From Asanoa hainanensis (GTDB lineage: Bacteria > Actinomycetota > Actinomycetes > Mycobacteriales > Micromonosporaceae): a DNA stretch of 64,000 nucleotides. A program made the translations under genes and the position numbers. The notes under the pieces are model-generated. The model saw nothing but the letters and a program-made list of their open reading frames with translations, did not search any database and was not told the DNA's origin. Below, piece by piece: positions 5,880 through 20,802 of the stretch. Numbering within the stretch: position 1 is the stretch's first letter; each line of letters begins with the position of its first letter. The DNA lies in the NCBI RefSeq assembly GCF_900188485.1, contig NZ_FZPH01000003.1:372001-436000 (forward strand). Direction: 5' to 3'.

Positions 5880-6727
5880 CAGCCGTCGTCCCGCCCGGCC
5901 AGCGGATGCTCGGCCAGATAGCGGCGGGACGCCGTGTAGGCGCGGCTGATCCGCCGGCCGACCGCGGCCATGTCGCGGTAGGCCCAGGGCGTGTCGTCTC
6001 GGGGCTCGAGGCCCCCTGTCGGAAGCACGTGCACCTCTACATGGTCGGGCAACGCCGCCACCTCGCGGGCGAAACGGTGCCGACGGGCGATCTCGAATGC
6101 CACCTGCGCCACCTCCCACGGGCGTCGCGGAGGTGTCAGCGGGCGCTCGATGCGCCCGACCTGGAGCACGAAGATGTGCCGTGCCCCACTGCTGACCGCC
6201 TCGCCGATCGGGATCGAGTTCACAATGCCACCGTCGACGTAGTGCTCCTCGCCGATCCGGGCCGGCGGCAGCAGACCGGGCACGGACGCGCTGGCGAGCA
6301 CCGCGTCGACCAGCGGGCCGCTGGAGAACCAGTGCTCGGCGGCGCGCTCGATGCTCGCCGCGCAGCACCGGAACGGCACCTTGAGCTCCTCGAACGTGGC
6401 GTTGTCGCCGAGCTCGCGCTCCAGCAGCCGGCGCAGCGGCCGGGGCGAGTGCAGGTGGGTACGCGCGGCGAAGCGCCGCAACTGCCGGGCCACGGAGTCG
6501 CCGTACACCTCGCTGGCCTCCGGACTCGCCCAGAGCCGCACCAGCCGGTCGGTGACCGCCTCCGTCGGGTCGGCGGCCACCAGCGCGCCGTTGACCGCGC
6601 CGATCGAGGTGCCGATCACGAGGTCGGGTTTGATGTCGGCGCGGAACAGCGCCCGCAGCATGCCGACCTCGACGGCACCCAGCACTCCGCCGCCACCCAG
6701 CACGAACGCCACCCGACCCCCACCCAC
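5879..6727 (-). CDS. Patatin-like phospholipase
   Basis: This 282-residue patatin domain contains the oxyanion loop GGGGVLG near the N terminus, the nucleophile elbow GTSIG (GTSIGAVNG) and the dyad aspartate in DGG (YVDGGIVNS). It has the Ser-Asp dyad of bacterial patatin acyl hydrolases, which act on phospholipids or neutral lipids. The GTG at 6727 is preferred because AGGA lies 7 nt upstream and the conserved domain begins immediately. The much longer open frame that reaches into the kinase gene is antisense read-through. It forms an operon with the acyltransferase and is divergent from the Ser/Thr kinase gene. Confidence 0.88.
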   Translation of the reverse strand: MGGGRVAFVLGGGGVLGAVEVGMLRALFRADIKPDLVIGTSIGAVNGALVAADPTEAVTDRLVRLWASPEASEVYGDSVARQLRRFAARTHLHSPRPLRRLLERELGDNATFEELKVPFRCCAASIERAAEHWFSSGPLVDAVLASASVPGLLPPARIGEEHYVDGGIVNSIPIGEAVSSGARHIFVLQVGRIERPLTPPRRPWEVAQVAFEIARRHRFAREVAALPDHVEVHVLPTGGLEPRDDTPWAYRDMAAVGRRISRAYTASRRYLAEHPLAGRDDG

Positions 6728-6763
6728 GGGTCCATCCTGGCACGCGGGCGGCGACCCTTCTGG

Positions 6764-6792
6764 TTGACAAGCCACCGGGCATCGCCGAGATT
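6764..6792 (+). promoter_or_regulatory. Housekeeping-type promoter for the kinase gene
   Basis: A perfect -35 TTGACA at 6764-6769 is followed after 17 nt by GAGATT at 6787-6792. It lies in the 105-bp divergent spacer, about 40 nt before the kinase ATG. Confidence 0.5.
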
Positions 6793-6832
6793 GAATCCAT
6801 TCCCCTCTTCCTCGCCGGTAGGTGTCGACCGT

Positions 6833-8170
6833 ATGTCCACGCTCACCCCGGGTGCCCTCCTCGCCCGTCGCTATCGGCTGATCGACCGGGTCGGCGCGGG
6901 CGGCATGTCGGTGATCTGGCGGGCCCGCGACGAGGTGCTCGACCGGACCGTCGCGGTCAAGGTGCTCTCCTCCGCCCTCGCGGCGGACGCCCGGTTCCGC
7001 GACCTGGTCCGCGACGAGGCCCGCGCCGCCGCGCAACTGGTGCATCCGCACGTCGCGACCGTGCACGACTATGCCGAGACCGTCGCACCGGACGGCACGG
7101 TTACCGCGTTCGTGGTGTTCGAGCTGCTCACCGGCGAGGAGCTGGAGGCCCGGCTCACCGAGGGACCGTTGCCCTGGCCGGACGCGGTGCGGGTGTGCGC
7201 CGAGGTGGCCGAGGCGCTCGCCGCCGCGCACCGGCTCGGGATCGTCCATCGTGACGTGACGCCGGCCAACGTGATGCTGACCCCGACCGGCGCGAAGGTG
7301 CTCGACTTCGGGATCGCCACCCGGGTCGGCGCGCCCGACGACGACGCCGAGGGCGAGACCTTCGGCACGCCCGCGTACGTCGCACCCGAACGCCTGGACG
7401 GCACACCGGCGCAGCCCGCGACCGACAGCTACGCGCTCGGCGTGCTGCTCCACGAGACGCTGACCGGGCACGTGCCGGTGCCCGCCGACACCTGGGAGGA
7501 CCTGACCCGGGCCTGGTCCGCCGGGCACTCCCCGGCGCCACCCGAGGTGGCCGGGCTGCCACCCGCGGTGGCCGAGCTGTGCGTGCGGTGCCTGGCCCGC
7601 GACCCGCTGTCCCGGCCGACGGCGCACGCCGCGGCGGCAGAGCTCCGGGCGGCGATCGCCGCACCACCGCCGCCGCCGTTGCCGCCGTTGCCGCCATTGC
7701 CGCCGCCGGCGCCGACCCCGGCTCCGCCGCCGGTCGAGGCACCACCGCGCCAGAGCCGGCTGCTGGTCGCGGCCGCGATCGCCGCCGTGCTGCTGCTCGC
7801 GACCGCCGTCCTGGTGCCGGTGCTGCACGAGGACGGGCCGCCACCGGGCGGCAGTGTCACGGCCCAACCGACCGCCCCGCCACCGCCCGCGACCGGGCCG
7901 GCATCCACGCCGGCCGGGCCGGTCTCGATCGGTGAGGCGCTGAGCCGGGTCGACGGGCTGATCACCGAGGGCCAGGCGGTCGGCGGCATCCGCCACGACG
8001 CCGCGACCGACCTGCGCAACCTGTTGCGCGAGCTGAACGCGGCCGAGACCCGCACCGACCGGGTCAACCAGCTCCGCGCGAAGGTCGCCGTGCGGGCCGG
8101 CGAGGGCGCGATCAGCCGGCCGTACGCCGAGCGCCTAGACCTTGCGCTGGCGGGCTTCCCCGGCGCCTAA
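6833..8170 (+). CDS. Transmembrane Ser/Thr protein kinase (PknB-like)
   Basis: The 445-residue protein has an N-terminal Hanks-type kinase domain (about 1-270): glycine loop GAGGMS, the VAVKV lysine at K43, the HRD catalytic loop near residue 139, DFG near 156, and GTPAYVAPE in the activation segment. A proline-rich juxtamembrane stretch follows, then a single transmembrane helix near 307-329 and a Thr/Pro-rich extracellular tail without PASTA repeats. The catalytic loop reads HRDVTPAN, so the usual lysine of HRDxKPxN is threonine, which may alter activity. The gene is divergent from the patatin operon. Its last 36 bp overlap the 3' end of the opposing ABC ATPase gene. Confidence 0.88.
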   Translation: MSTLTPGALLARRYRLIDRVGAGGMSVIWRARDEVLDRTVAVKVLSSALAADARFRDLVRDEARAAAQLVHPHVATVHDYAETVAPDGTVTAFVVFELLTGEELEARLTEGPLPWPDAVRVCAEVAEALAAAHRLGIVHRDVTPANVMLTPTGAKVLDFGIATRVGAPDDDAEGETFGTPAYVAPERLDGTPAQPATDSYALGVLLHETLTGHVPVPADTWEDLTRAWSAGHSPAPPEVAGLPPAVAELCVRCLARDPLSRPTAHAAAAELRAAIAAPPPPPLPPLPPLPPPAPTPAPPPVEAPPRQSRLLVAAAIAAVLLLATAVLVPVLHEDGPPPGGSVTAQPTAPPPPATGPASTPAGPVSIGEALSRVDGLITEGQAVGGIRHDAATDLRNLLRELNAAETRTDRVNQLRAKVAVRAGEGAISRPYAERLDLALAGFPGA

Positions 8171-9406: not shown

Positions 9407-9554
9407 CGCGAACACCTCCTGTCCGCAATGGTGGTCTTCGATGACCTGTAACACCAGAGCAATCTCGGTCGCGTATGCCGTATGGCTAGCACTACCTGAG
9501 GTCTAGCGGCAGGCGTAGGGCGTACGCGGTGCGTCCGTCGTTAGCGTGCTTGGC

Positions 9555-10856
9555 ATGACCGCGTTGCGTGCGCTAGCCAAACCGACCTTCCTGCGGACCG
9601 CCTGGCCCTGGCGTTCGCTCGGCTACCTGATCAGCACGGCCCCGATCGGGTTCGTGGCGATGCTGGTGTTCGGCACCGTCGCGCTGCCCTGGGTGGTTGC
9701 CGCGGACCGGCTGATCCGCGGCGAGACCAACCTGTCCGGTCCGCAGCTCGTCCTGCTGGTCTGCGTCGGCACCGTGCTGCTGGGCACGGTCGCGCCGGCC
9801 AGCGCCGTCGTCCTGGCCGCCGTCGAACGGTTCCGGCTCCGCCTGGTCGACGACCGACCGCTGCCCGGCCTGCCGCCACCGACGTCCGGGCAGTGGTTCC
9901 GCTGGCTGGCCGACCGCTACGTCGACGGCGCCACCTGGCGGGCCGTGGTCTACGGCTTCGCGCTGAGCTCGGTGGTGCCGCTGGTCTACTTCGTCGCGGG
10001 CATCGCCTTGCTGATGGTCCTCGCCCTGATCTCCAGCCCGTTCGTGGTCAGCGCCGGCGAGCCGGTCACGCTGGGCACGGCCGCGGTCGACACGCCTTCG
10101 GAGGCGCTGCCGTACGCGCTGCTCGGGCTGGTCCTGCTGCCCGCCGTCCCGTACCTGTTCGCGGTGGTGGCGGGAGCGCACGGCGCGCTGGCGCGGGTGC
10201 TGCTGGGCGGAGCCGACGAACAGGCCCGCCGGCGGCTGGCCGAGGTGGTCAGCTCCCGCGCCCGGCTGGTCGACGGCTTCAGCGCGGAGCGCCGCCGGAT
10301 CGAACGCGACCTGCACGACGGCGCCCAGCAGCGGCTGGTCAGCCTGACCCTGCAACTCGGGGTGGCCCAGCTCGACCTGCCGCCGGACAGCCCGGCCGCC
10401 CGCAGCGTCGGCGTCGCGCACGACCAGGCCAAGCAGCTCATGGCCGAGCTGCGCGAGCTGATCCGCGGCGTCCACCCACAGGTGCTCACCGACAGCGGCC
10501 TGGACGCGGCGGTACGCGAGCTCGCCGATCGCTCGACGGTCCCGGTGACCGTGGCGGTCGACCTGCCGGAACGGCCGCCGGAGCACGTCGAGTCGACCGC
10601 GTACTTCGTCGTCGCCGAAGCCCTCGCCAACGTGGCCAAGCACAGCGGGGCCACGCAGGTCCAGGTCTCCGCGGTGCGGGCCGGCCGGACGCTGGTCGTC
10701 GAGGTCGGCGACAACGGCCACGGCGGTGCCGCACCGGGCGAGGGCAGCGGGCTGACCGGGCTCGCCGACCGGGTGGCCGCGGTCGGCGGCACGACCCGGC
10801 TGTCCAGCCCGGCCGGCGGACCGACGCTACTGCGGGCGGAACTGCCGTGGCGGTGA
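9555..10856 (+). CDS. NarL-type sensor histidine kinase
   Basis: This 433-residue kinase has four or five hydrophobic segments in its first 220 residues and no recognisable extracellular domain. The HisKA_3 phosphoacceptor helix follows (ERDLHDGAQQRL, His near 250), then a HATPase_c domain with N-box ALANVAKHS and G-motif GSGLTGLADR. It belongs to the DesK/NarX group of actinobacterial two-component kinases. The ATG at 9555 is preferred over a GTG 9 nt upstream: TAGCGT (9542-9547) lies 7 nt before it and no Shine-Dalgarno is present, suggesting a leaderless transcript. It is coupled by GTGA overlap to the response regulator. Confidence 0.85.
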   Translation: MTALRALAKPTFLRTAWPWRSLGYLISTAPIGFVAMLVFGTVALPWVVAADRLIRGETNLSGPQLVLLVCVGTVLLGTVAPASAVVLAAVERFRLRLVDDRPLPGLPPPTSGQWFRWLADRYVDGATWRAVVYGFALSSVVPLVYFVAGIALLMVLALISSPFVVSAGEPVTLGTAAVDTPSEALPYALLGLVLLPAVPYLFAVVAGAHGALARVLLGGADEQARRRLAEVVSSRARLVDGFSAERRRIERDLHDGAQQRLVSLTLQLGVAQLDLPPDSPAARSVGVAHDQAKQLMAELRELIRGVHPQVLTDSGLDAAVRELADRSTVPVTVAVDLPERPPEHVESTAYFVVAEALANVAKHSGATQVQVSAVRAGRTLVVEVGDNGHGGAAPGEGSGLTGLADRVAAVGGTTRLSSPAGGPTLLRAELPWR

Positions 10857-11500
10857 TCCGGACCGTGCTGGCCGAGGACGGCACGCTGCTGCGCGAAGGG
10901 CTGACCGGCATCCTCGACCGCTTCGGGTTCACCGTCACCGCCGTCGGTGACGCGGCCGCCCTGGTCGCCGCCGTCGACGCGGACGTGCCGGACCTGGTGG
11001 TCACCGACATCCGGATGCCGCCGGGCTTCACCGACGAGGGCCTGCGGGCCGCGGTCGAGCTGCGCCGTCGCCATCCCGGGCTGCCGATGGTCGCGCTCAG
11101 CCAGTACGTGCAGGAGAGCTACGCCGCCGACCTGCTCGACTCGGGTGCCGGCCGGGGCGTCGGCTACCTGCTCAAGGACCGGGTCGTCGACATCGCCGAG
11201 TTCATCGCCGCGCTGCGCCAGGTCGCCGCCGGCGGCACGGTGGTCGACCCGCAGGTCGTCTCCCAACTCGTACGCCGCCGGCGCGACCCGCTGGCCCAAC
11301 TGTCCAACCGGGAGCGGGAGGTGCTCCAGCACGTCGCCGAGGGACACTCCAACGCGGCCATCGCCCGGCTGCTGGTGGTCTCCGAGGCGGCGGTGGGCAA
11401 GCACGTCGGCAACATCCTGGCCAAGCTCGACCTGCCGCCCGACGACGACCGCAACCGGCGCGTGGTCGCGGTGCTGACCTATCTGCGCGCGGGTCAGTGA
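10853..11500 (+). CDS. NarL/LuxR-family response regulator
   Basis: The 215-residue protein has a receiver domain (acidic AED near residue 10, phosphoacceptor Asp in VTDIRMPPG, conserved Lys in YLLKDRV) and a C-terminal LuxR helix-turn-helix (LSNREREVLQHVAEGHSN). The start GTG at 10853 overlaps the kinase stop (GTGA); a GTG six nucleotides upstream is possible. It is the cognate partner of the kinase just before it. Its last 7 bp overlap the end of the opposing acidic-repeat gene. Targets are unknown, but the convergent protease cluster next door is a candidate. Confidence 0.88.
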   Translation: MIRTVLAEDGTLLREGLTGILDRFGFTVTAVGDAAALVAAVDADVPDLVVTDIRMPPGFTDEGLRAAVELRRRHPGLPMVALSQYVQESYAADLLDSGAGRGVGYLLKDRVVDIAEFIAALRQVAAGGTVVDPQVVSQLVRRRRDPLAQLSNREREVLQHVAEGHSNAAIARLLVVSEAAVGKHVGNILAKLDLPPDDDRNRRVVAVLTYLRAGQ

Positions 11501-12291
11501 TGGACGGTGCGGTCCATCCAGCCGTCGCCGTTGTCGTCGTACATCGTCTTCTCGAAGACGCCGTCGCCGTCCTTGTCGTAGTCGGCCGAGTTGACCAGAC
11601 CGTCGCCGTCGGTGTCGTGGCCCACGAAGTCGACCCGGCCGTCGCGGTCGTTGTCGACCATGATGTCGACGCCGCCACCGCTGCGGCCCAGCAGGACGTG
11701 CTTGTCCCAGTCGCCGTCACCGTCGACGTCGACCCGGGTGTGGTAGCCCTCCGGCACCACGGAGCTCGGCGTCTCCGGCACGGGCGCCGGGCCGAGGCCG
11801 GTGGTGGCGACGGTGGCGTCCGGTGCCGGACCCATCGCGTCGGCGCCCGCCGGTGCGGTCGCCTGGAGCCCCTCACCGATCTCGTCGCCGAAGCCCGAGA
11901 GCCCACCCATGCCGCCGTGGGTGCCTTCGGCCTGCGCGTACGGGCCGAAGCTCGCCCCGTCGTAGCCCGCCGGACCCAGGCCGGCGCTGCCGGCGGGCGT
12001 GCCGAGGCCGCTCGTCGCCGCGTGCCCGAGCCCGGACGTGCCGCCGAGCGAGACGCCGTCGGCCAGCAGGCCGCCCAGCGAGCCGAGCAGGCCGAACGTG
12101 CTCGACTGGTTGGCCCGGGTCTCCACCGCGTGCTCGGTCGGCGACTCGCCACCGACCTGGGTGTGCAGCAGCGCGATCTCGTCGTCGCTCAGCGAGTAGC
12201 TGGCCAACGCCAGGCCCGGGTCGGACGCCAGCGCGCTGGCGAAAGCCGGGTCGACCACCAAACGCTCCAGCACCTCGTCGAAGTCACTCAT
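11494..12291 (-). CDS. Acidic Asp/Gly-repeat protein with RiPP-leader-like N terminus
   Basis: The 265-residue protein has three parts. Residues 1-45 form a short helical region (FDEVLERL, DPAF, SDPGLALASY, LSDDEIALL). This resembles the leader segment of NHLP/Os1348-type peptide precursors and, less closely, IniB N termini. Residues 50-160 are Gly/Ala/Ser-rich and low complexity. Residues 180-265 carry at least five calcium-loop-like DxDxDG repeats (DVDGDGDWD, DNDRDGRVD, DTDGDGLVN, DKDGDGVFE, DDNGDGWMD). There is no signal peptide. GGAGGG precedes the ATG by 7 nt. It is the last gene of a three-gene cluster with a cysteine-rich mini-protein and a large membrane metalloprotease, so it may be that protease's substrate. 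That role is inference. Confidence 0.7.
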   Translation of the reverse strand: MSDFDEVLERLVVDPAFASALASDPGLALASYSLSDDEIALLHTQVGGESPTEHAVETRANQSSTFGLLGSLGGLLADGVSLGGTSGLGHAATSGLGTPAGSAGLGPAGYDGASFGPYAQAEGTHGGMGGLSGFGDEIGEGLQATAPAGADAMGPAPDATVATTGLGPAPVPETPSSVVPEGYHTRVDVDGDGDWDKHVLLGRSGGGVDIMVDNDRDGRVDFVGHDTDGDGLVNSADYDKDGDGVFEKTMYDDNGDGWMDRTVHH

Positions 12292-12309
12292 CGCTGGCCC
12301 CTCCCCATC

Positions 12310-12335
12310 GACGGCGCTCCTACGGTAGCGCCGTC
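12310..12335 (-). terminator. Intercistronic hairpin
   Basis: Perfect 9-bp arms (gacggcgct 12310-12318 and agcgccgtc 12327-12335) with an 8-nt loop overlap the stop codon of the mini-protein and end just before the Shine-Dalgarno of the acidic-repeat gene. It could be a partial terminator or an mRNA processing or stability element that uncouples expression of the last gene. Confidence 0.45.
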
Positions 12336-12549
12336 AGTCGAGCTCCGGCATCGGCACCGGTTGGGGACGCGGCCGGCACGTGCCACATTGCACGGCGTCC
12401 TCGACGACCAGCCCCTCGGCGCGGTTGCGGGTCTCCGACCGGTGCACCTCCAGCAGGAACGGGCCGAACCGGGCGTGGTCCTCGCACACCCCACGCCCAC
12501 AGAACCGGCACGACCCCCGCGCCGACTTAGGACAAAACCAACAGAGCAC
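12334..12549 (-). CDS. Cysteine-rich zinc-ribbon mini-protein
   Basis: This is a 71-residue protein with paired cysteines (CWFC near residue 3, CRFC near 14, CEDH near 22, CGTC near 55), suggesting one or two zinc-binding knuckles. It starts with GTG, and AAGGAG lies about 5 nt upstream, overlapping the TAA stop of the preceding metalloprotease gene (9-bp gap). The two genes are therefore almost certainly co-transcribed. No family is recognised. Its position between the protease and the repeat protein suggests a role in the same system, for example as an adaptor. Confidence 0.7.
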   Translation of the reverse strand: MLCWFCPKSARGSCRFCGRGVCEDHARFGPFLLEVHRSETRNRAEGLVVEDAVQCGTCRPRPQPVPMPELD

Positions 12550-12558
12550 GAACTCTCC

Positions 12559-15500
12559 TTATGAGGGCGTTGGAGGATTGCACGGCGCCACGGCAATGTT
12601 GCTGCCGTCGATCGAGGACGACTCACCTTCGGTGTCGGTGGCGGTCACCGTGATCGACAACGTGCCGCCTTCGTTCGGCTTGCCCGGATAGGGCACAGGA
12701 CCGATCTGGCCGTAGAAGTTGCCGTCCCAGGACATCGAATTGCTCCCGGAGTCGAAGCCCGACCAAGAGACGGTGACCTTGATGCTCTGATCCGAGTCCT
12801 TGTCGTCGGTTACCGACACCACGGGGAAGGCCGCCGTGCCGTTCCTGCCACACGACGATTCACCACCGATCTGCTGGTCGATCGTGCCGCCCGGGTCGGT
12901 CACCCAGGTGATCGTCGGCGGCTTGTTGGTGTCGACCGGCGGCTGCGTCGTGGTCGGCGGTCTGGTCGTCGGCTGGGTAACCGGAGGCACGGGGTCGTCG
13001 CCCGGCTGGGCCGGCGGCGGGTTGTTGTTGTCGTCGTCATCGTCGTCGTCCGTGCCGGCCGGCGGGGTCGGCGTCACGCTCGGCGTGGCCGTCGGCGACG
13101 GCAGGTCGGTCGGTGACGGCTCTTCGCTGGGCGACGGCTCGTCGGTCGGACCGGCCGGGCGTGGCACCTCGCGACCGTCACCGCAGTCGAGCGCCGCGTC
13201 CGTAGCCGACTGAAGCTCCCCGTCGACCCGCACGGACCCCTTGGAGACGACGGTGCCGGCGGCGCTGACCCGGTACCAGGCGGCGCCGTCGTTGGTCAGC
13301 CGCGAGCCCGCCGCGTCCAGCGACAGGTCCAGCGGCCGGAACGTGCCGCGCGTGCTCGCCGTGTCGACCAGCACCCGGCCGTCGGCCAACCGCAGCGAGC
13401 CGTGCGGCACGGTGCGCCGGTCACCCGAGCTCCACAGCTCACCGACCGCGACCCCGCTGCCCGCGCAGAGCACGGTCACGGACCCGCCGCGGAAGGTCAG
13501 GGTCGCCGAGGACCGGTCGCGCAGCTTCACCTGGTCGCCTTCGGTCACGTACACCTTGGCGCCCGAAGAGAGTTTGAGCCGCTTGCCGTTGACCTGGACG
13601 TCGGCGGTGCCCCGGGTGGTCGACAGCAACGCCCGGTCGGCCGGCATCTCGGCCCACGCGGGCCCGGGCAGGAAGTTGGTGCCGGTCAGGAACAGCGCGA
13701 GCAGCAGGAGGAGCGCGGTCAGCCACCACAGCCGGCGCTCGAAGCGACCGTCGACCGTCTCGTCGATCACCGGTGGCGGCCCGGGCGGGGCGGCCAGCGG
13801 CGGGTAGCCACCCGACGGGTGCACGCCGACCTGCGGACCGGCGCCGGCGACCGAGGCGACCACGGAGGGATCGGCGCCGAGCAGCAGCGGCACACCCGGG
13901 AGGGCCGGCACCGACCAGAGCCGGGTGGGCGTGCGCGCGGTCGCCACTACCCCGCCCGGCCCGTCGCCGATCGGGCCGATCAGGGTGCCCCGGCGCAGGT
14001 CGGTGCCGTCGGGCAGGACGACCGTGCCGGACTCGACGACCACCGCGTCGGTGGCGCCGTCGAGCGAGACCGGGTCGCCGGGCGCGAGCAGGATCGGCCG
14101 GGCGGCGGAGACCAGGCCCATCCGGTCCTCGGCGCTGAGCGACTGCAGCGCGGGTGCCTCGGCGAACAGCCGGTCGGCCTGGTCCCACTCGGCGGGCGGC
14201 GGCCCGGGCACCGGGCCGATCGCGCGGGAAACCGCGGACGGCGGGATGGACAGCAGCGTGGTGCCGGCGGTGTGCCAGGCCAGCGCGGCGGGCGCCCCGC
14301 TGAGCGCACTGGCCAGCCCGACCACGCCGCCGGCGCCGAGCCGTTGCCGGACCAGGCCGGAGGGGTCGTCGGGGCGGCGGGCCTCCACGGCGCCGTCGAC
14401 CACGACGTAGACGGCCCGCTGTGCGGAGCCGGCGAAGACGAGCTGCTGACCGGTGCGCGGGCGCACCCAGGTCGCGGCGGCGGCCAGGTCGGCGAGCGCA
14501 CCGCCGGAGAGCCGGCCGAGCGCGGACGCCCGCAGCGCGTCGAGCCTGCGCGGTGCGTCGAGGTCGCGGCTGCGTTGTTCGAGCCGGCGGCGCAGGGCGC
14601 TGACCCGGCGGGAGATCCAGCCGGCGGCGAGATAGACCAGCGGCGCCGCCAGGCCGCAGATCACCGCGGCGAGCAGAATCCGGGCGGGCCAGCCGGAGCG
14701 CCACAACCCGATGGTCAACCCGGCGACGCGGTCGGTCCAGATGCGCCAGAAGAGGTTGACGGCGATGGCCACCCAGAGCACGGCGACCGTGCCGTAGAGC
14801 GCGACCAGCCGGCCCTCGCGGTCGAGCTCCGACCAGCGCGGCGGGCGGCGGCGGAGCCGGCTGACCACGAAGGTCAGGCCCCGGGCGCGCAGGTTGGGGA
14901 TCTCCAGCCAGTCCATCAGCAGGTAGTAGCCGTCGAGCGCCAGGAACGGGTTGAGGTTGAACAGGGCGTTGAGGTACCAGGCGAAGGCCAGCTTGAAGGT
15001 CCACGGAGCGGCTTCGGGCACGAAGACACCGACGAGCCCCGCGATGCCGGCCAGCACCAGCCCGGCGGCCGGTCCGGCGGCGGTGGTGGTCATCCGCGCC
15101 CGGCGGCCGGCCATCCACACGTCGGTGGTGTCGACGAAGACGGACGGGATGCCGAAGTAGACGAGGAAGCCCGCGGCCGGCACCCGCCGGCCGGCGTGCT
15201 TGGTGGCCAGCGCGTGGCCGAGCTCGTGGCAGGCCAGGGCGAGCACGTTGAGCCCGAGCAGCACGGCCGCGCCGACCGCGTACGAGCCGCCGGTCAGGAA
15301 GACCGACTCCTCGCCGTGCCACCACGTCCAGCCGAACGCGAGCAGGCCGGCCAGCGCGATGACGCCGAGCAGCGCGGCGACGGCCTTGTGGAAGAGGAAC
15401 CGGCCGCCGGCGCGATAGAGGAAGCCGACCAGCGGGTCGATGTCGGCGATCACGGTGCGCCGGCCCTGCGCGAAGGCCAGCAGCGAGCGGCCCAGCCGGA

Positions 15501-15951
15501 TCGGCCAGGGGCGGCGGTGCACGCGGGCCAGCGGGCGGAACGCGTCGACGGGCAGCTCGGCCAGCATGCGGTTGGCGGCGAGGTCCGCGACCACCCGGGT
15601 GACCTGGTCCGGGGCGAGGCGGCCACCGATCCGGGCGAACTCGGCGACGAGGCGGGCGACCGTACGCGTGCCGTCCATCAGGGTCGCGAGCTGCCACTCC
15701 TCGGGCGTGAGCCGCAGGTAGCAGGCGGCGCCCCGGTCGTCGGGCGAGCGGAGCATCACGTACGGGACGTCGCGCACCGACACGAGGTCGACCTGCTCGA
15801 TCCCGGCGCGCAGCACGGGCTTGGCGCGGGCCGGATTGAGCCGTTCGACGACGGCCGCCCACATGCCGGGGTCGTGCGGACCTATCGGCTGCCCCGGCGC
15901 CCGCCCGGCCAGCGCCTCCCACACACTCACCCGGGTCTCGACGACCGTCAC
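12559..15951 (-). CDS. Membrane metalloprotease fusion: PqqD-like, M50, cNMP-like, FecR-like
   Basis: The protein is 1130 residues. Residues about 60-140 resemble a PqqD/RRE peptide-binding fold (YLRLTPEEWQLATLMDG). Residues about 150-450 form a multi-spanning M50 (site-2 protease-like) domain with the zinc motif HELGH near 243 and the second motif NPFLALDGY near 335. Residues about 480-590 look like a cyclic-nucleotide-binding (CAP_ED) fold, followed by a second, more degenerate copy. A transmembrane helix near 730 leads to a FecR-like beta domain (about 765-890), a Pro/Thr/Asp linker with a seven-Asp run, and a C-terminal Ig-like domain. The GTG at 15951 is chosen because GGAGG sits 9 nt upstream; the next upstream GTG has no spacing. 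First gene of the cluster. Confidence 0.82.
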   Translation of the reverse strand: MTVVETRVSVWEALAGRAPGQPIGPHDPGMWAAVVERLNPARAKPVLRAGIEQVDLVSVRDVPYVMLRSPDDRGAACYLRLTPEEWQLATLMDGTRTVARLVAEFARIGGRLAPDQVTRVVADLAANRMLAELPVDAFRPLARVHRRPWPIRLGRSLLAFAQGRRTVIADIDPLVGFLYRAGGRFLFHKAVAALLGVIALAGLLAFGWTWWHGEESVFLTGGSYAVGAAVLLGLNVLALACHELGHALATKHAGRRVPAAGFLVYFGIPSVFVDTTDVWMAGRRARMTTTAAGPAAGLVLAGIAGLVGVFVPEAAPWTFKLAFAWYLNALFNLNPFLALDGYYLLMDWLEIPNLRARGLTFVVSRLRRRPPRWSELDREGRLVALYGTVAVLWVAIAVNLFWRIWTDRVAGLTIGLWRSGWPARILLAAVICGLAAPLVYLAAGWISRRVSALRRRLEQRSRDLDAPRRLDALRASALGRLSGGALADLAAAATWVRPRTGQQLVFAGSAQRAVYVVVDGAVEARRPDDPSGLVRQRLGAGGVVGLASALSGAPAALAWHTAGTTLLSIPPSAVSRAIGPVPGPPPAEWDQADRLFAEAPALQSLSAEDRMGLVSAARPILLAPGDPVSLDGATDAVVVESGTVVLPDGTDLRRGTLIGPIGDGPGGVVATARTPTRLWSVPALPGVPLLLGADPSVVASVAGAGPQVGVHPSGGYPPLAAPPGPPPVIDETVDGRFERRLWWLTALLLLLALFLTGTNFLPGPAWAEMPADRALLSTTRGTADVQVNGKRLKLSSGAKVYVTEGDQVKLRDRSSATLTFRGGSVTVLCAGSGVAVGELWSSGDRRTVPHGSLRLADGRVLVDTASTRGTFRPLDLSLDAAGSRLTNDGAAWYRVSAAGTVVSKGSVRVDGELQSATDAALDCGDGREVPRPAGPTDEPSPSEEPSPTDLPSPTATPSVTPTPPAGTDDDDDDDNNNPPPAQPGDDPVPPVTQPTTRPPTTTQPPVDTNKPPTITWVTDPGGTIDQQIGGESSCGRNGTAAFPVVSVTDDKDSDQSIKVTVSWSGFDSGSNSMSWDGNFYGQIGPVPYPGKPNEGGTLSITVTATDTEGESSSIDGSNIAVAPCNPPTPS

Positions 15952-16210: not shown

Positions 16211-17791
16211 TTATGACGCTTCGGTGAGCGTCACGGTTGCGGTGTTCGACGAACCGTTTCGGGTGTAGGTCAGCTGCACCTGGTCACCGACCTTGTGCGA
16301 CTGCACCGCGGCCACGAGCTCGTCCGAGGTGTTGATCGCCTCGCCACCGAAGTTGGTCACGATGTCGCCCTGCTGGAGCCCGGCCTTGGCGGCCGCGCTG
16401 TTCTCGCTGACGGCGCTGATCAGCGCGCCGGTGCCCTGCTCGGTCTCGGTGACCGAGACGCCGAGCGCGGCGTGCGAGACCTTCTCACCGTTGCGCAGCG
16501 CGTTGGCGACCTGCTCGGCCTTGGCGCTCGGGATCGCGAAGCCCACGCCGATGCTGCCGTTGCCCTGGCCCGAGGTGGCGATCGCGGTGTTGATGCCGAT
16601 CACCTCGCCGTTGGTGTTGACCAGCGCGCCGCCCGAGTTGCCGGGGTTGATCGGCGCGTCGGTCTGCAGCAGGCCGGACAGCGACGTCGCGGTCGGCTGC
16701 TGGTTGGCGCCACCACCGAACGGGCTCTGCTGCTGGTCCTGCTCGGACTGGGTCCGGATGGTGCGGTCCTTGGCGCTGATGATGCCGGCGGTGACCGAGC
16801 CCTGCAGGCCCAGCGGGCTGCCCAGGGCCAGCACGGTGTCGCCGACCTGCACGCCCGCGCTGTCGCCGAACTTGGCCGGGCTCAGCCCCGACACGTTGTC
16901 GGCCTTGACGACCGCGAGGTCGCTCTTCGGGTCGGTGCCGACGACCTTGGCCGTGGCGCGCTTGCCGTTGTCGAAGACCACCGTGACCGAGCCGCCGCTG
17001 GCGCTGGCCACGACGTGGTTGTTGCTCAGCACGTAGCCGTCTTCGGTGAGCACCACGCCGGAGCCCTCGCCGCTGCCGGTGGTGATCGAGACGATGCTCG
17101 GCTCCACCTTCTGCGCGATCTCGGCGAGCGACGACCGGTTGACCACGGGCGCGGCGGCCGCACGGGCCCGCGCGTTGTCGGCGTCGTTGCCGTTGAGGGC
17201 GGCGCCGATCACGCCGCCGACCAGGCCGGCGCCGAGCAGCAGCACGAGCGCCACCGCCGCCGCGGCGATCCACCGGCCGACCTTGTTGGGCCGGCGCGGG
17301 CCGGGCGCGTGCTGCGGCCAGGGCTGACCGGGCGGCGGGCCGCCGGGGCCACCGGGGCCAACCCACGGGATCGGGGTGCCGTGCGGCTGGTGTGCCTGGT
17401 GGCCGGCCTGGGTGGGGTCGGCCGGAGCGCCGGGGTAACCGGCCTGGCCGTAGCCGCCGGTCGCCGGGTAGCTGTACTGCGGGTAGCCCGAACCGGCCTG
17501 CGGGTAGCCGGGCTGCGGGTAGTGCGCGGCGGGCTGCTGCCACGGGCTGCGGGCCGGCTCCACGGTGCCGCTGACCGGCTGGGGGTGGGCGGGGGTGCTC
17601 GGCTCGGCGTCGGCTGGACGCGCGTACTGGTCCGGGTCCGCCGGGGGCGAGTACTGCCCGGCCTCCGCGGGACGGGCGTACTGCTCGGTCGGCTGCTCGG
17701 CGCCGAACGGACGCGGCTCCGGCGTGGACGCGGACTCCGGTTCGGTGCCCCGCTCGCGATCGTGCCGGGGGTCGCTTTCGTGCTCGGTCAT
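16211..17791 (-). CDS. pepD: HtrA/DegP-like membrane-anchored serine protease
   Basis: The protein is 526 residues. A long cytoplasmic N terminus rich in Pro, Gln and Tyr (about 1-170) is followed by one transmembrane helix (about 175-198) and a trypsin-like domain. The triad is visible as NNHVV (His), SDLAVVK (Asp) and NPGNSGGAL (Ser). The C-terminal PDZ domain contains GLQQGDIVTNFGG. It should degrade or chaperone misfolded envelope proteins outside the membrane. The ATG has AAAGG 8 nt upstream, within the 3' end of the kinase gene 5 bp away. Order and content match M. tuberculosis mprA-mprB-pepD, the basis for the symbol. Confidence 0.85.
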   Translation of the reverse strand: MTEHESDPRHDRERGTEPESASTPEPRPFGAEQPTEQYARPAEAGQYSPPADPDQYARPADAEPSTPAHPQPVSGTVEPARSPWQQPAAHYPQPGYPQAGSGYPQYSYPATGGYGQAGYPGAPADPTQAGHQAHQPHGTPIPWVGPGGPGGPPPGQPWPQHAPGPRRPNKVGRWIAAAAVALVLLLGAGLVGGVIGAALNGNDADNARARAAAAPVVNRSSLAEIAQKVEPSIVSITTGSGEGSGVVLTEDGYVLSNNHVVASASGGSVTVVFDNGKRATAKVVGTDPKSDLAVVKADNVSGLSPAKFGDSAGVQVGDTVLALGSPLGLQGSVTAGIISAKDRTIRTQSEQDQQQSPFGGGANQQPTATSLSGLLQTDAPINPGNSGGALVNTNGEVIGINTAIATSGQGNGSIGVGFAIPSAKAEQVANALRNGEKVSHAALGVSVTETEQGTGALISAVSENSAAAKAGLQQGDIVTNFGGEAINTSDELVAAVQSHKVGDQVQLTYTRNGSSNTATVTLTEAS

Positions 17792-17796
17792 GACAT

Positions 17797-19413
17797 TTAC
17801 CTTTCCCCACCGCTCTGCGACGGGCCTGGGGCCGGGCTGAGCGTTGTCTGAGAGTGCCCGTTGGCGGCCGGGTCGGGGCCTGGGCCGTCCGCGTCGTCGT
17901 GGTCGTCCTCGCCGGTGGCCAGCGGCAACCGGACCCGGAACGTCGAGCCCTTGCCGGGCACGCTGTCGACCTCCACGCTGCCGCCATGCGCGCGGACCAG
18001 GGCGGCGACGATCGCCAGGCCCAGACCCGTGCTGTTGGCCTCGCGGTCGCGGCGGCGGGCGGCGTCGGCCCGGTAGAACCGCTCGAAGACGCGCTCGGCC
18101 TGCTCCGGTGGCAGACCCTGGCCGGTGTCGACCACCTCGACGATCGCCGAGCCGCCGTCGGAGCGCAGCCGCACAGTGATCTTGGCCGGCTGCGGCGTGT
18201 GGATGATCGCGTTGGTCAGCAGGTTGCCGAGCACCTGGCGCAGCCGGGCGTCGTCGGCCTGGACCACCAGCAGCCCGGCCCGCGGCGCGACCTCGATCGA
18301 GATGTCGCGGTCGGGCGCCATCGCCTGCGCGGCCTGCACCGCCTCGCTGGCCAGCACGCGCAGCTCGACCGGCGACAGCGAGAGCGGTCGTTCCCGGTCG
18401 AGGCGGGCGAGCAGCAACAGGTCCTCCACGAGAAGACCCATCCTGGCGGCCTCGTCCTCGATGCGGCGGACCAGCCGTGCGGTGTCCTCCAGCGAACCCG
18501 CGGCCGCACCCTGCCGGTAGAGCTCGGCGAAGCCGCGGATCGTGGTCAACGGCGTACGCAACTCGTGTGAGGCGTCCGCGACGAACTGCCGCATCCGTTC
18601 CTCGGACCGCAGGGCCCGCGCCTCCGACGCCTGTGCGGCGAACGCCGCGTCACGGGCGGCGGCCTCGGAGTCGGCCCGGGCCGCGAACGCGGTCTCGATC
18701 TGGGTCAGCATCGAGTTGAGGGCCCGGGACAGCCGGCCGAGCTCGGTCTTGGGTTCCTCGACGCCGGGTTCCGGGTCGGGAACCCGCTGGCTCAGGTCGC
18801 CGGCCGCGATCGCCACCGTGGTGCGCTCGATCTGCCGCAGTGGTTTGAGGTTGCTGCGGACTATCGCGGCGCCGACGGTCGCGAGCACGATCAGCACCGT
18901 GCCCCCGGCCAGGCCGTCGATCCAGAGCAACTGTTTGACGGTGTGGTCGACGTCGGAGAGGTTGAACCCGACCGCGACGATCGCGCTGCTGTCCTGCGGC
19001 TGCACCATCAGGACGCGCCATCGGGCCTGGCTGCCGATCGCCTTGACCGTGAACGGGTCGTTGTGGTGCTGGCGCAGCGACTGCTGCAGCCCCTGGTAGT
19101 TCTGCGGCAGGTCCGGCCCGTCCGGGGTGAACAGCTGGCTGGGCTTGCTGCTCAGGTCGTTGAGGGTCGGCTGCGCCGGGGTGGAGGCCACGGCGAACGC
19201 ATTGTCGCCGACCGCGAACTGGATGTTGTCGCGGAGCAGCGCCTGCACGTTGTTGTTGAGGCTGCGCAGGTTGCCGTCGACCTGGTCGAGCAGGTAGTTG
19301 CGCAGGAAGAAGGTGCTGGCCGCACCGATCACCAACAGGGCGGCCGTGACCAGCGCCAGCACGGCGGCGACGAGTTTGACGCGCAGCGGGGTGCCACGCA
19401 GGGGAGCCAGCAT
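17797..19413 (-). CDS. mprB: Envelope-stress sensor histidine kinase (MprB-like)
   Basis: This 538-residue kinase has a transmembrane helix near the N terminus (about 10-35), an extracellular sensor of about 130 residues, and a second helix near 165-190. HAMP (about 190-245), HisKA with HELRTPLTTIRG, and a HATPase domain (N-box NLLTNAIIHTP, G1 VVDTGQGLP, G2 STGLGLAIV) follow. It ends with a disordered Asp/Pro/Ser tail. It is the middle gene of a response regulator-kinase-protease operon, with gaps of 11 bp and 5 bp. By analogy with MprB it would sense envelope stress and be linked to the protease; the symbol rests on gene order as well as domain layout. Confidence 0.82.
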   Translation of the reverse strand: MLAPLRGTPLRVKLVAAVLALVTAALLVIGAASTFFLRNYLLDQVDGNLRSLNNNVQALLRDNIQFAVGDNAFAVASTPAQPTLNDLSSKPSQLFTPDGPDLPQNYQGLQQSLRQHHNDPFTVKAIGSQARWRVLMVQPQDSSAIVAVGFNLSDVDHTVKQLLWIDGLAGGTVLIVLATVGAAIVRSNLKPLRQIERTTVAIAAGDLSQRVPDPEPGVEEPKTELGRLSRALNSMLTQIETAFAARADSEAAARDAAFAAQASEARALRSEERMRQFVADASHELRTPLTTIRGFAELYRQGAAAGSLEDTARLVRRIEDEAARMGLLVEDLLLLARLDRERPLSLSPVELRVLASEAVQAAQAMAPDRDISIEVAPRAGLLVVQADDARLRQVLGNLLTNAIIHTPQPAKITVRLRSDGGSAIVEVVDTGQGLPPEQAERVFERFYRADAARRRDREANSTGLGLAIVAALVRAHGGSVEVDSVPGKGSTFRVRLPLATGEDDHDDADGPGPDPAANGHSQTTLSPAPGPSQSGGER

Positions 19414-19424
19414 CGGCGCCCCGG

Positions 19425-20138
19425 TCAGGCCGTCGGTTTGCGCAGGACGTATCCGACGCCACGCAGGGTGTGGATCAGCCGCGGCTGGCCGTTGTCGATC
19501 TTGCGACGCAGGTAGGAGATGTAGCTCTCCACGATGTTGTCGTCGCCGCGGAAGTCGTAGTTCCAGACGTGATCGAGGATCTGCGCCTTGGAGAGCACCC
19601 GGTTGGCGTTGAGCATCAGATAGCGGAGCAGTTTGAACTCGGTGGGGGAAAGCTGGACCCGCGCGCCGGCGCGGTAGACCTCGTGGGTCTCCTCGTCGAG
19701 CTCGAGGTCGGCGAACGTGAGCCGGGAGGTGCTCTGGTCACCGGAGGTGGTGCGGCGCAGCACCGCCCGGATGCGGGCGGTCAGCTCCTCGAGGCTGAAC
19801 GGCTTGGTGACGTAGTCGTCGCCGCCCAGGGTCAGGCCGCGGATCTTGTCGTCGGTGGCGTCGCGGGCGGTCAGGAACACCACGGGGGTACGGGTGCCGC
19901 CTTCGCGCATCAGCCTTATCACCTCGAAGCCGTCGAGGTCCGGGAGCATCACGTCGAGGACGACCAGGTCGGGCCGGCGATCCTTGGCGGCGCTGACGGC
20001 GGAGCTGCCGCTCGTCGCGGTGCTCACCTCGAAGCCGGCGAACTTCAAGCTGGCGGAGAGCAGCTCGAGGATGTTCGGGTCGTCTTCGACGACAAGCAGT
20101 CTCGCCTCGGTCTGTGGAGCGGCCATGACACCCATCAT
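19425..20138 (-). CDS. mprA: OmpR-family response regulator (MprA-like)
   Basis: The 237-residue regulator has a receiver domain (VVEDDPNILE, phosphoacceptor in VVLDVMLPDLDG, Lys in YVTKPFS) and a C-terminal winged helix (LSPTEFKLLRYL, DNIVESYISYLRRK, TLRGVGYVLR). It is the first gene of the operon with the kinase and HtrA protease. Three ATG codons at 20138, 20135 and 20126 compete. None has a strong Shine-Dalgarno, and the shortest form gives 233 residues. The 64-bp gap to the PadR gene must contain the operon promoter. The symbol is based on mprA-mprB-pepD order; other OmpR regulators with similar domains exist. Confidence 0.85.
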   Translation of the reverse strand: MMGVMAAPQTEARLLVVEDDPNILELLSASLKFAGFEVSTATSGSSAVSAAKDRRPDLVVLDVMLPDLDGFEVIRLMREGGTRTPVVFLTARDATDDKIRGLTLGGDDYVTKPFSLEELTARIRAVLRRTTSGDQSTSRLTFADLELDEETHEVYRAGARVQLSPTEFKLLRYLMLNANRVLSKAQILDHVWNYDFRGDDNIVESYISYLRRKIDNGQPRLIHTLRGVGYVLRKPTA

Positions 20139-20202
20139 TAACCCGTACGCTGTGTCGCCGCTGGATTGAACCTGAAAGTCCGCTGTGCGCGCTGAGCGGT
20201 TT

Positions 20203-20802
20203 CTACCGTTGCATCCGGCGCAGTCCGTCGAGTACTCCGTCGAGCAGTCTGGACGCCGTGCGCAGCTGGTCGTCGCTGAACCGCCCACGGCGGACCAGCG
20301 CACGCACCTCGTCCGAGAACGCCACCAACCGCCGGTCGAAGTCGGCCTGCGGGTCGGTGCCCGGCGGGGACGGGCGCCCCCCGAGCTGGACGTCGACCAC
20401 CCACGAGGTGCCCCGCCGGGTCTGCCGGGCCGCCTCGCGCAGCTCGCGCTTGAGGTCGCGGGCCGAGCCGTGCACCTCGGCCTGGATCTCCGCGGCCAGG
20501 TCGGCGACGGACGCGTTGATGTCCTTCTCCAGCGTCTCCAGCTCGCCGGCCCGTTGGCGCAGCTCCGAGCGGCCGTCGTCGGTGATCGAGTACGTCTTGC
20601 GCCCGCCCGCCGCGGTGTGGGTGACCAGGCCCTCGCTCTCCATCCGGGCCAACCGCGGATAGATGGTGCCGGCGCTGGGCGCGTACGTGCCGTGGAACCG
20701 GTCGGCCAGCAGCCGGATCAGCTCGTAGCCGTGCTTCGGGCCGTCGTCGAGCAGCTTGAGCAGGTAGAGACGCAACCGCCCATGGCTGAACACGGCCGTC
20801 AT
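20203..20802 (-). CDS. PadR-family transcriptional regulator
   Basis: This 199-residue protein has the PadR winged helix at residues 5-85 (LRLYLLKLLDDGPKHGYEL, SAGTIYPRLARMESEGLV, RKTYSITDDGR) and a long helical C terminus that would form the dimerisation arms. Its ATG overlaps the stop of the upstream DUF4097 gene (ATGA, 20799-20802). The pair is co-transcribed, as is usual for PadR regulators and the envelope proteins they control. A direct-repeat motif upstream of the pair is a possible binding site. Confidence 0.88.
   Translation of the reverse strand: MTAVFSHGRLRLYLLKLLDDGPKHGYELIRLLADRFHGTYAPSAGTIYPRLARMESEGLVTHTAAGGRKTYSITDDGRSELRQRAGELETLEKDINASVADLAAEIQAEVHGSARDLKRELREAARQTRRGTSWVVDVQLGGRPSPPGTDPQADFDRRLVAFSDEVRALVRRGRFSDDQLRTASRLLDGVLDGLRRMQR

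Follow-up and report, generated by a model that had tools for sequence, protein, structure and literature searches.

The window analyzed here, a stretch of 64,000 nt from Asanoa hainanensis (contig NZ_FZPH01000003.1, positions 372,001 to 436,000), encodes a cluster of three genes: a large membrane protease, a small cysteine-rich protein and a repeat protein with a leader-like N terminus. We consider it fairly likely that this cluster is a processing module derived from the pathways of ribosomally synthesized and post-translationally modified peptides (RiPPs), in which a leader, a RiPP recognition element (RRE) and an M50 protease act on a large protein. This reading is favored because both the RRE and the leader have RiPP homologs, the genes co-occur, the trio stays complete where the tested flanking genes are not found, RiPP enzymes are found near relatives, and daptides offer a precedent. 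The genes, with the sizes given in a preliminary description of this DNA, are:

12559..15951, minus strand: RRE-M50 fusion protease, 1130 aa from the GTG at 15951 (the longest open reading frame (ORF), 15960-12559, gives 1133 aa)
12334..12549, minus strand: Cys-rich protein, 71 aa, CxxC...CxFCGRxxCxxH...CxxC
11494..12291, minus strand: leader-bearing DxDxDG repeat protein, 265 aa

The three ORFs are tightly spaced on a common strand between 15960 and 11494. The GTG at 15951 agrees with the MTVV/MTIV starts of homologs, which were themselves chosen mechanically, while AAGGAG stands immediately 5' of the Cys-rich protein start and GGAGGGG precedes that of the repeat protein. Promoter and terminator scans found nothing. 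All three genes look genuine because the ratios of nonsynonymous to synonymous substitution rates (dN/dS) against five same-genus homologs are low: 0-0.061 for the Cys-rich protein, 0.015-0.117 for the RRE part of the protease, and 0-0.052 for leader residues 1-45, where selection is strongly purifying. The middle of the repeat protein evolves fast in the same five comparisons (0.30-0.65).

Three features carry the proposed link to RiPP pathways:

15556..15813, minus strand: PqqD/RRE-like domain of the protease, about residues 50-135 (PqqD 3g2b, E 6e-5; ApyI model 4.2e-6, below cut-off; PqqD 5sxy the top match of the structural model)
12157..12291, minus strand: leader, residues 1-45 of the repeat protein, homologous to the Os1348/NHLP clan by profile matches
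12106..12117, minus strand: R-x-[SNT]-[KQ] motif past the leader (RANQ in the window), its Arg invariant in 18 aligned leaders

For the first of these, an alignment of 62 rows (residues 41-160 and relatives) was searched as a profile against the PDB and matched PqqD 3g2b (positions 5-91), with PaaA, TfuB1, PbtF, TbiB1 and PqqD 5sxy as weaker matches. Pfam PqqD was detected in 24 of the 62 members, the window row not among them; the ApyI, daptide and ScmD models matched 23, 18 and 10 of them, respectively. The AlphaFold2 model of the domain (pLDDT 84) shows three strands followed by three helices, and the Foldseek search placed PqqD 5sxy first (prob 1.00, E 4.9e-3) and TglHI, which we take to have an RRE, third. 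With this three-strand/three-helix order and its similarity to PqqD, the protease carries, on profile and model grounds, a PqqD/RRE domain, in agreement with the preliminary description, which would have been refuted had a profile search shown no such similarity.

The Os1348 family model NF038399 matched the window repeat protein at E 8.9e-8 (32.1 bits) over the whole protein, and the leader part by itself at 35.3 bits. We aligned 18 leaders across phyla, with rows picked by similarity to the window leader. All 18 matched NF038399 (E<=0.01), 14 matched TIGR04509, and three each matched nitrile hydratase alpha and the NHLP model TIGR03793; the relatives L173, L178 and L183 exceeded the NF038399 cut-off of 40, with 63.9, 58.5 and 60.6 bits. 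The best PDB matches of the leader profile were 6lk7 (1.1e-7), presumably Os1348 judging from its 85 residues and four chains, followed by nitrile hydratases and an NHLP leader chimera. By these profile comparisons, the N terminus of the repeat protein is homologous to RiPP leaders of the Os1348/NHLP clan, at a score that does not attain the curated cut-off of NF038399. Past the leader, the Arg at residue 59 is invariant in 18/18, and R-x-[SNT]-[KQ] begins at it in 13/18; this stretch is a possible processing or recognition site. An Os1348-family search of 17 genomes gave a match in every one. In the window genome there was exactly one, the repeat protein gene, and several of the other genomes had matches on contigs apart from the protease. 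The window cluster thus has a leader-bearing precursor together with an RRE protein, as RiPP clusters do, and the leader homology strengthens the earlier idea that the PqqD-like domain may recognize this leader.

The membrane part of the protease contributes the following:

14698..15405, minus strand: M50 membrane core, residues 186-421, helical in the model, with catalytic positions invariant or nearly so
15214..15228, minus strand: HELGH zinc motif, residues 245-249 of the 1133-aa form, from sequence and alignment
14926..14952, minus strand: NPFLALDGY second zinc motif, residues 337-345 of the 1133-aa form, from sequence and alignment

In a 35-row alignment H245, E246, D343 and G344 are invariant and H249 is nearly so. 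Both the HExxH and the DG motif lie in predicted membrane helices, as is typical of M50, which confirms the two zinc motifs described earlier. The Pfam M50 match was below its cut-off (E 0.11), as were all NCBIfam matches of the protease: daptide_HExxH (5e-34), LiaK (6.2e-10), ApyI RRE (3.7e-5) and FtrB (0.017). The AlphaFold2 model of the full-length protein (mean pLDDT 81.9, pTM 0.65) has, in order, the RRE-like unit, a multi-helix membrane core, two folds resembling cyclic nucleotide monophosphate (cNMP)-binding domains, a helix at 734-761, a beta domain and an Ig-like C-terminal domain.

Co-occurrence of the genes was counted in 121 genomes of the family, using leader profiles built from copies adjoining a protease. 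Before counting, 11 of 86 protease rows weaker than 1e-25 were dropped, as were leader rows weaker than 1e-14 (33 of 87 in the search for lineage A, that of the window, and 38 of 72 for lineage B); many of the dropped leader rows were cross-matches between the two leader types, and others were short proteins elsewhere. Protease-A was present in 55 genomes and a strong A leader in 52; 51 had both, and just one had a leader alone (Fisher 3.8e-28, ignoring shared ancestry). For lineage B, the protease, the leader and both together were each found in 17 genomes. All five same-genus relatives taken hold the three genes. Of the strong A leader copies, 48/54 are encoded downstream of a protease-A, at most 8 kb away and on its strand. 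The repeat-protein gene is thus conserved beside the protease in related genomes, and its absence there, which the preliminary description had named as a refuting result, was not what we saw. In lineage B the gene order is reversed, with 17/34 strong leader copies upstream of protease-B; the leaders of the two lineages are homologous in hhalign (97.7%, E 1.5e-12).

The genes might be neighbors by inheritance only, with no joint function. Conservation is largely within one family, and the disregard of shared ancestry in the statistic above would also fit such a case. Nevertheless, we judge it very improbable, given the reversed order in lineage B, co-occurrence even where protease and leader are unlinked (G028, G036), and loci in contigs whose labels name different orders, classes and phyla. 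The trio was also found in metagenome-assembled genomes (MAGs) labelled Frankiales (L148), Nitriliruptoraceae (L155, with three leader genes) and Anaerolineae (L182 and L183, with two and four short leader peptides, respectively), labels that may be wrong. Moreover, six loci in which we detected none of the flanking genes tested still have the complete trio (L061/L117, L123, L128, L129, L148, L155). The named loci are the best 80 of at least 251 confirmed.

An ordinary RiPP cluster would be one in which enzymes encoded elsewhere modify the core and the protease then removes the leader. Several relatives have surroundings of this kind. For example, Parafrankia soli (L173, 5584-10948) encodes in a row an MNIO enzyme (PF05114, 2e-54), an Os1348 precursor whose tail contains Cys, an ATP-grasp maturase-like protein (TIGR04187 3.2e-49, below cut-off), an RRE-M50-cNMP protease and the Cys protein. 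In the Acetothermia MAG L178, a radical SAM/SPASM protein is encoded in the same stretch as the protease, the leader and the Cys gene, the last on the opposite strand, and in the Frankiales MAG L148 the leader and protease genes are separated by a gene (5912-6880) for a protein with a methyltransferase domain (MTS 4.3e-14). Short Os1348 peptides adjoin the trio in the Anaerolineae MAGs. Against these parallels, no modifying enzyme was recognized beside the window trio, where translations were inspected by eye, Pfam was run on some flanks only and the genome elsewhere was not searched. The window protein also has no Cys, and the regular DxDxDG repeat that makes up its conserved C-terminal part resembles a folded domain more than it does a modified core. 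On balance, we regard an ordinary RiPP cluster as unlikely for the window. As a separate observation, genes for short Os1348 peptides stand in tandem (6558-7609) in the Anaerolineae MAG L183 and immediately precede those of the Cys protein and the RRE-M50 protein; two of the peptides have NHNE close to their C termini.

The repeat region is as follows:

11521..11739, minus strand: five D-x-[DN]-x-D-G loops with conserved spacing, presumed calcium-binding

Four of the five loops are strictly DxDxDG and their spacing is about 25-13-13-13. None of 20,000 shuffles of the repeat protein attained five loops, which rules out a chance origin and upholds the earlier count. Among the 23 lineage-A proteins listed, five loops were found in 18, four in three (L064, L065, L062), three in L059 and none in the short L021 frame. 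The window protein ends in VHH, and its Asp/Gly loops presumably bind calcium. Lineage-B passengers are Pro/Asp/Gly-rich, with a Gly/Ala-rich hydrophobic C-terminal segment in 11 of the 12 listed; two of four linked ones scanned gave weak TSP_3 matches (L074 0.0062, L078 0.00054; none in L070 and L072). Other passengers were seen elsewhere in the family: L094 (6935-7711) and L097 (6884-7429) join an Os1348-type leader and an R-L-S-K motif to repeated Cys-Asp/Asn-Gly-His units, and two genomes that also have lineage B clusters encode unlinked small leader proteins (L092 7274-7687 and L093 7171-7545; 125-138 aa frames).

In the processing module that we propose, the repeat protein would be made with its Os1348/NHLP-type leader, which would dock on the RRE of the protease at the cytoplasmic side. 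The M50 site in the membrane could then cut near the conserved Arg-x-Ser/Asn-Lys/Gln stretch past the leader. Such a cut would release the Asp/Gly-loop protein and perhaps help to deliver it, an idea carried over from the epipeptide peptidase EpeP, and the released protein may bind calcium to fold, either at the membrane or beyond it. The Cys-rich protein, from its co-inheritance, probably binds zinc and assists the protease.

Several observations weigh against this module. Leader binding and cleavage are steps that we infer from the sequences, and in Pfam and NCBIfam scans of the three window proteins no match attained its curated cut-off, the leader itself scoring 32-35 bits where NF038399 requires 40. 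With the RRE model Foldseek gave no match at E <= 0.001. Designed beta-trefoils (best 4.6e-9) outscored PqqD when the RRE profile was searched against the PDB; we discounted that identity, as these matches span about 20-36 positions of one hairpin. The Arg motif reads R-K-S in five Anaerolineae rows and may be part of the leader, not the mark of a cut site. The repeat protein has no hydrophobic stretch resembling a membrane span (maximum 19-residue Kyte-Doolittle value 1.25), and no dedicated exporter was recognized among the flanking genes read. Linkage is also incomplete: four of the 55 protease-A genomes have no strong leader match, and a protease-B neighbor is missing for half of the strong B leader copies, some of which sit at contig ends. 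We collected 119 distinct protease loci, window included, and 96 of these had room on both sides. The Cys protein was found in 58 of the 96, a leader gene in 45 and both in 36, leaving 29 with neither partner, 22 with the Cys protein and no leader, and nine with a leader and no adjacent Cys protein. The leader count of 45 is one too low, since Parafrankia soli was counted as L040 without its Os1348 precursor; L173 and L175 duplicate L040 and L039, and their added leader rows had no effect on these counts. Likewise, L114 was counted as having no adjacent Cys protein although its locus contains one. Because some genomes retain the protease and Cys protein with no nearby leader gene, some of the proteases likely have substrates other than the leader protein.

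Beyond the membrane core, the protease has four further parts:

13891..14508, minus strand: two cNMP-like folds, residues 485-585 and 605-690, with a degenerate phosphate-cassette motif
13678..13761, minus strand: single predicted membrane helix, residues 734-761, from the model
13186..13632, minus strand: beta domain past the membrane helix, residues 777-925, from the model (described earlier as FecR-like; Pfam FecR absent)
12586..12918, minus strand: Ig-like C-terminal domain, residues 1015-1125, from the model (weak Big_9, 0.1)

For the cNMP-like folds, the best Foldseek matches were mostly protein kinase A (PKA) regulatory subunits and related kinases. The phosphate-binding cassette, which we take to be FGE..ALL..R.A.V, is present in L037, L038, L162, L165 and L180 and replaced in rows of the window lineage; the folds in the window protease look degenerate, so that the cyclic-nucleotide-like folds described earlier stand as folds, with the binding motif of relatives lost. 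FecR was not among the Pfam matches up to E 1, for the whole protease or the beta segment, and that assignment is unconfirmed; the Ig-like domain is present in the AlphaFold2 model. Some RRE-M50 relatives do without the two degenerate cNMP folds, the beta domain and the Ig-like domain, all of which are add-ons. The lineage-B proteases, of about 600 aa, are by their length without the cNMP, beta and Ig parts; each of the three scanned contains an FHA domain (4.7e-15 for L070) and matches zinc ribbons weakly (0.021-0.094). In Parafrankia, the homologous protease of L175 ends in a peroxiredoxin-like domain.

These add-ons bear on another explanation, in which the beta and Ig-like domains let the protease sense the outside, its target is a different protein, and the leader protein is a regulator and not the substrate. 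Such regulated-proteolysis signaling would suit the large part beyond the last membrane helix, the cNMP folds and the 22 of 96 loci with protease and Cys protein but no linked leader gene. An HtrA-like protease and a two-component pair, encoded upstream on the same strand (16211-20303), are syntenic in many, not all, Micromonosporaceae loci, and would fit as well. However, these upstream regulators were not found in the six trio-bearing loci named above, and the pairing of an RRE with a RiPP leader recurs with the FHA-bearing lineage-B proteases, which do without those parts. We therefore hold signaling of this kind to be quite unlikely.

The preliminary description had also suggested control by a convergent two-component pair. 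This NarL-type pair (9546-11500) was searched for with tblastn (1e-30) in 49 loci, some of which are the same genome twice and some of which, e.g. L015, end too early to judge. Of these, just L014, L016 and L017, all in the genus of the window, had both proteins next to the cluster, and we rejected such control as a general feature. Taken as a whole, the earlier interpretation keeps its leader, RRE and neighborhood parts; two-component control is not supported and FecR not confirmed, with binding and cleavage still at the level of proposals.

The Cys-rich protein, which is probably a zinc protein, belongs to a family that received no database name in the scans made, and its PDB profile similarity is weak (best 0.026). 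It is present in 53 of the 55 protease-A genomes. The only genome with the Cys protein and no counted protease-A (G010) carries a fragment of the protease next to its Cys gene, on one and the same contig, and the only lineage-B genome with it (G039) also has lineage A. The protease and the Cys protein are also found together in contigs of Methanothrix/Methanosaeta MAGs and an uncultured archaeon (L177, L179, L184); on these archaeal-labelled contigs the RRE-M50 protein is short (about 460-485 aa). In small actinobacterial genomes (L041-L046), the Cys protein occurs with no RRE-M50 gene within the fetched stretch.

More tentatively, an RRE-M50 protease and a zinc-type Cys protein, paired since ancient times and at first part of RiPP leader machinery, could have become in Micromonosporaceae a dedicated leader-guided route for the maturation and delivery of large calcium-repeat proteins that have no recognizable Sec signal. 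If this were true, a RiPP leader would serve as the address for a pathway of protein export or processing, and RiPP leader recognition would extend past small modified peptides to folded proteins of several hundred residues sent to a membrane protease. It would also provide a testable route for signal-peptide-free actinobacterial surface proteins, a function for a conserved family of Cys-rich proteins and, for the engineering of tag-directed processing, a simple set of leader, RRE and protease.

Among known systems, the NHLP and Nif11 leader precursors (PMC2887384) share with the window leader a relationship to nitrile hydratase alpha, but TIGR03793 matches only 3/18 of our leaders. EpeP is thought to cleave and export, a statement that its source then qualifies (PMC10885120). 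Like the epipeptide peptidases EpeP/YydH/LiaK (NF058609; 6.2e-10, 39.2 bits), the window protein is an M50 membrane protease that would mature a ribosomal precursor; it differs in its score (39 bits against a cut-off of 225) and in its RRE and extra domains. Os1348 of Pseudomonas sp. Os17 is an 85-aa precursor whose neighbor Os1350 is a predicted peptidase (PMC7726476). The likeness to Os1348 (NF038399, PF14407) is one of leader homology, with 6lk7 the best PDB match and all 18 leaders matching NF038399, whereas the window leader heads a 200-residue repeat protein and scores under the curated cut-off.

In the daptides, the peptidase MpaP/DapP (NF041824) has the same fusion of an RRE to an M50 membrane peptidase, and residues 77-417 of the window protease match its model at 5e-34. 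The match reaches 118 bits against a cut-off of 300, and the window substrate is a 265-aa protein ending in His, whereas a daptide is a short peptide ending in Thr. Inspection by eye of ORF translations around 7-20 kb recognized no oxidative decarboxylase, aminotransferase, methyltransferase or DUF-RRE protein of the daptide type. With the cut-off missed, daptide features absent and a repeat protein ending in VHH, membership in the daptide clusters was rejected. Within open-licence papers we found no described system of this composition, nor did the preliminary description know of one; the components of the cluster, on the other hand, are partly described, since the daptide report (PMC10036551) has the RRE-dependent intramembrane M50-type peptidase MpaP/DapP removing the leader.

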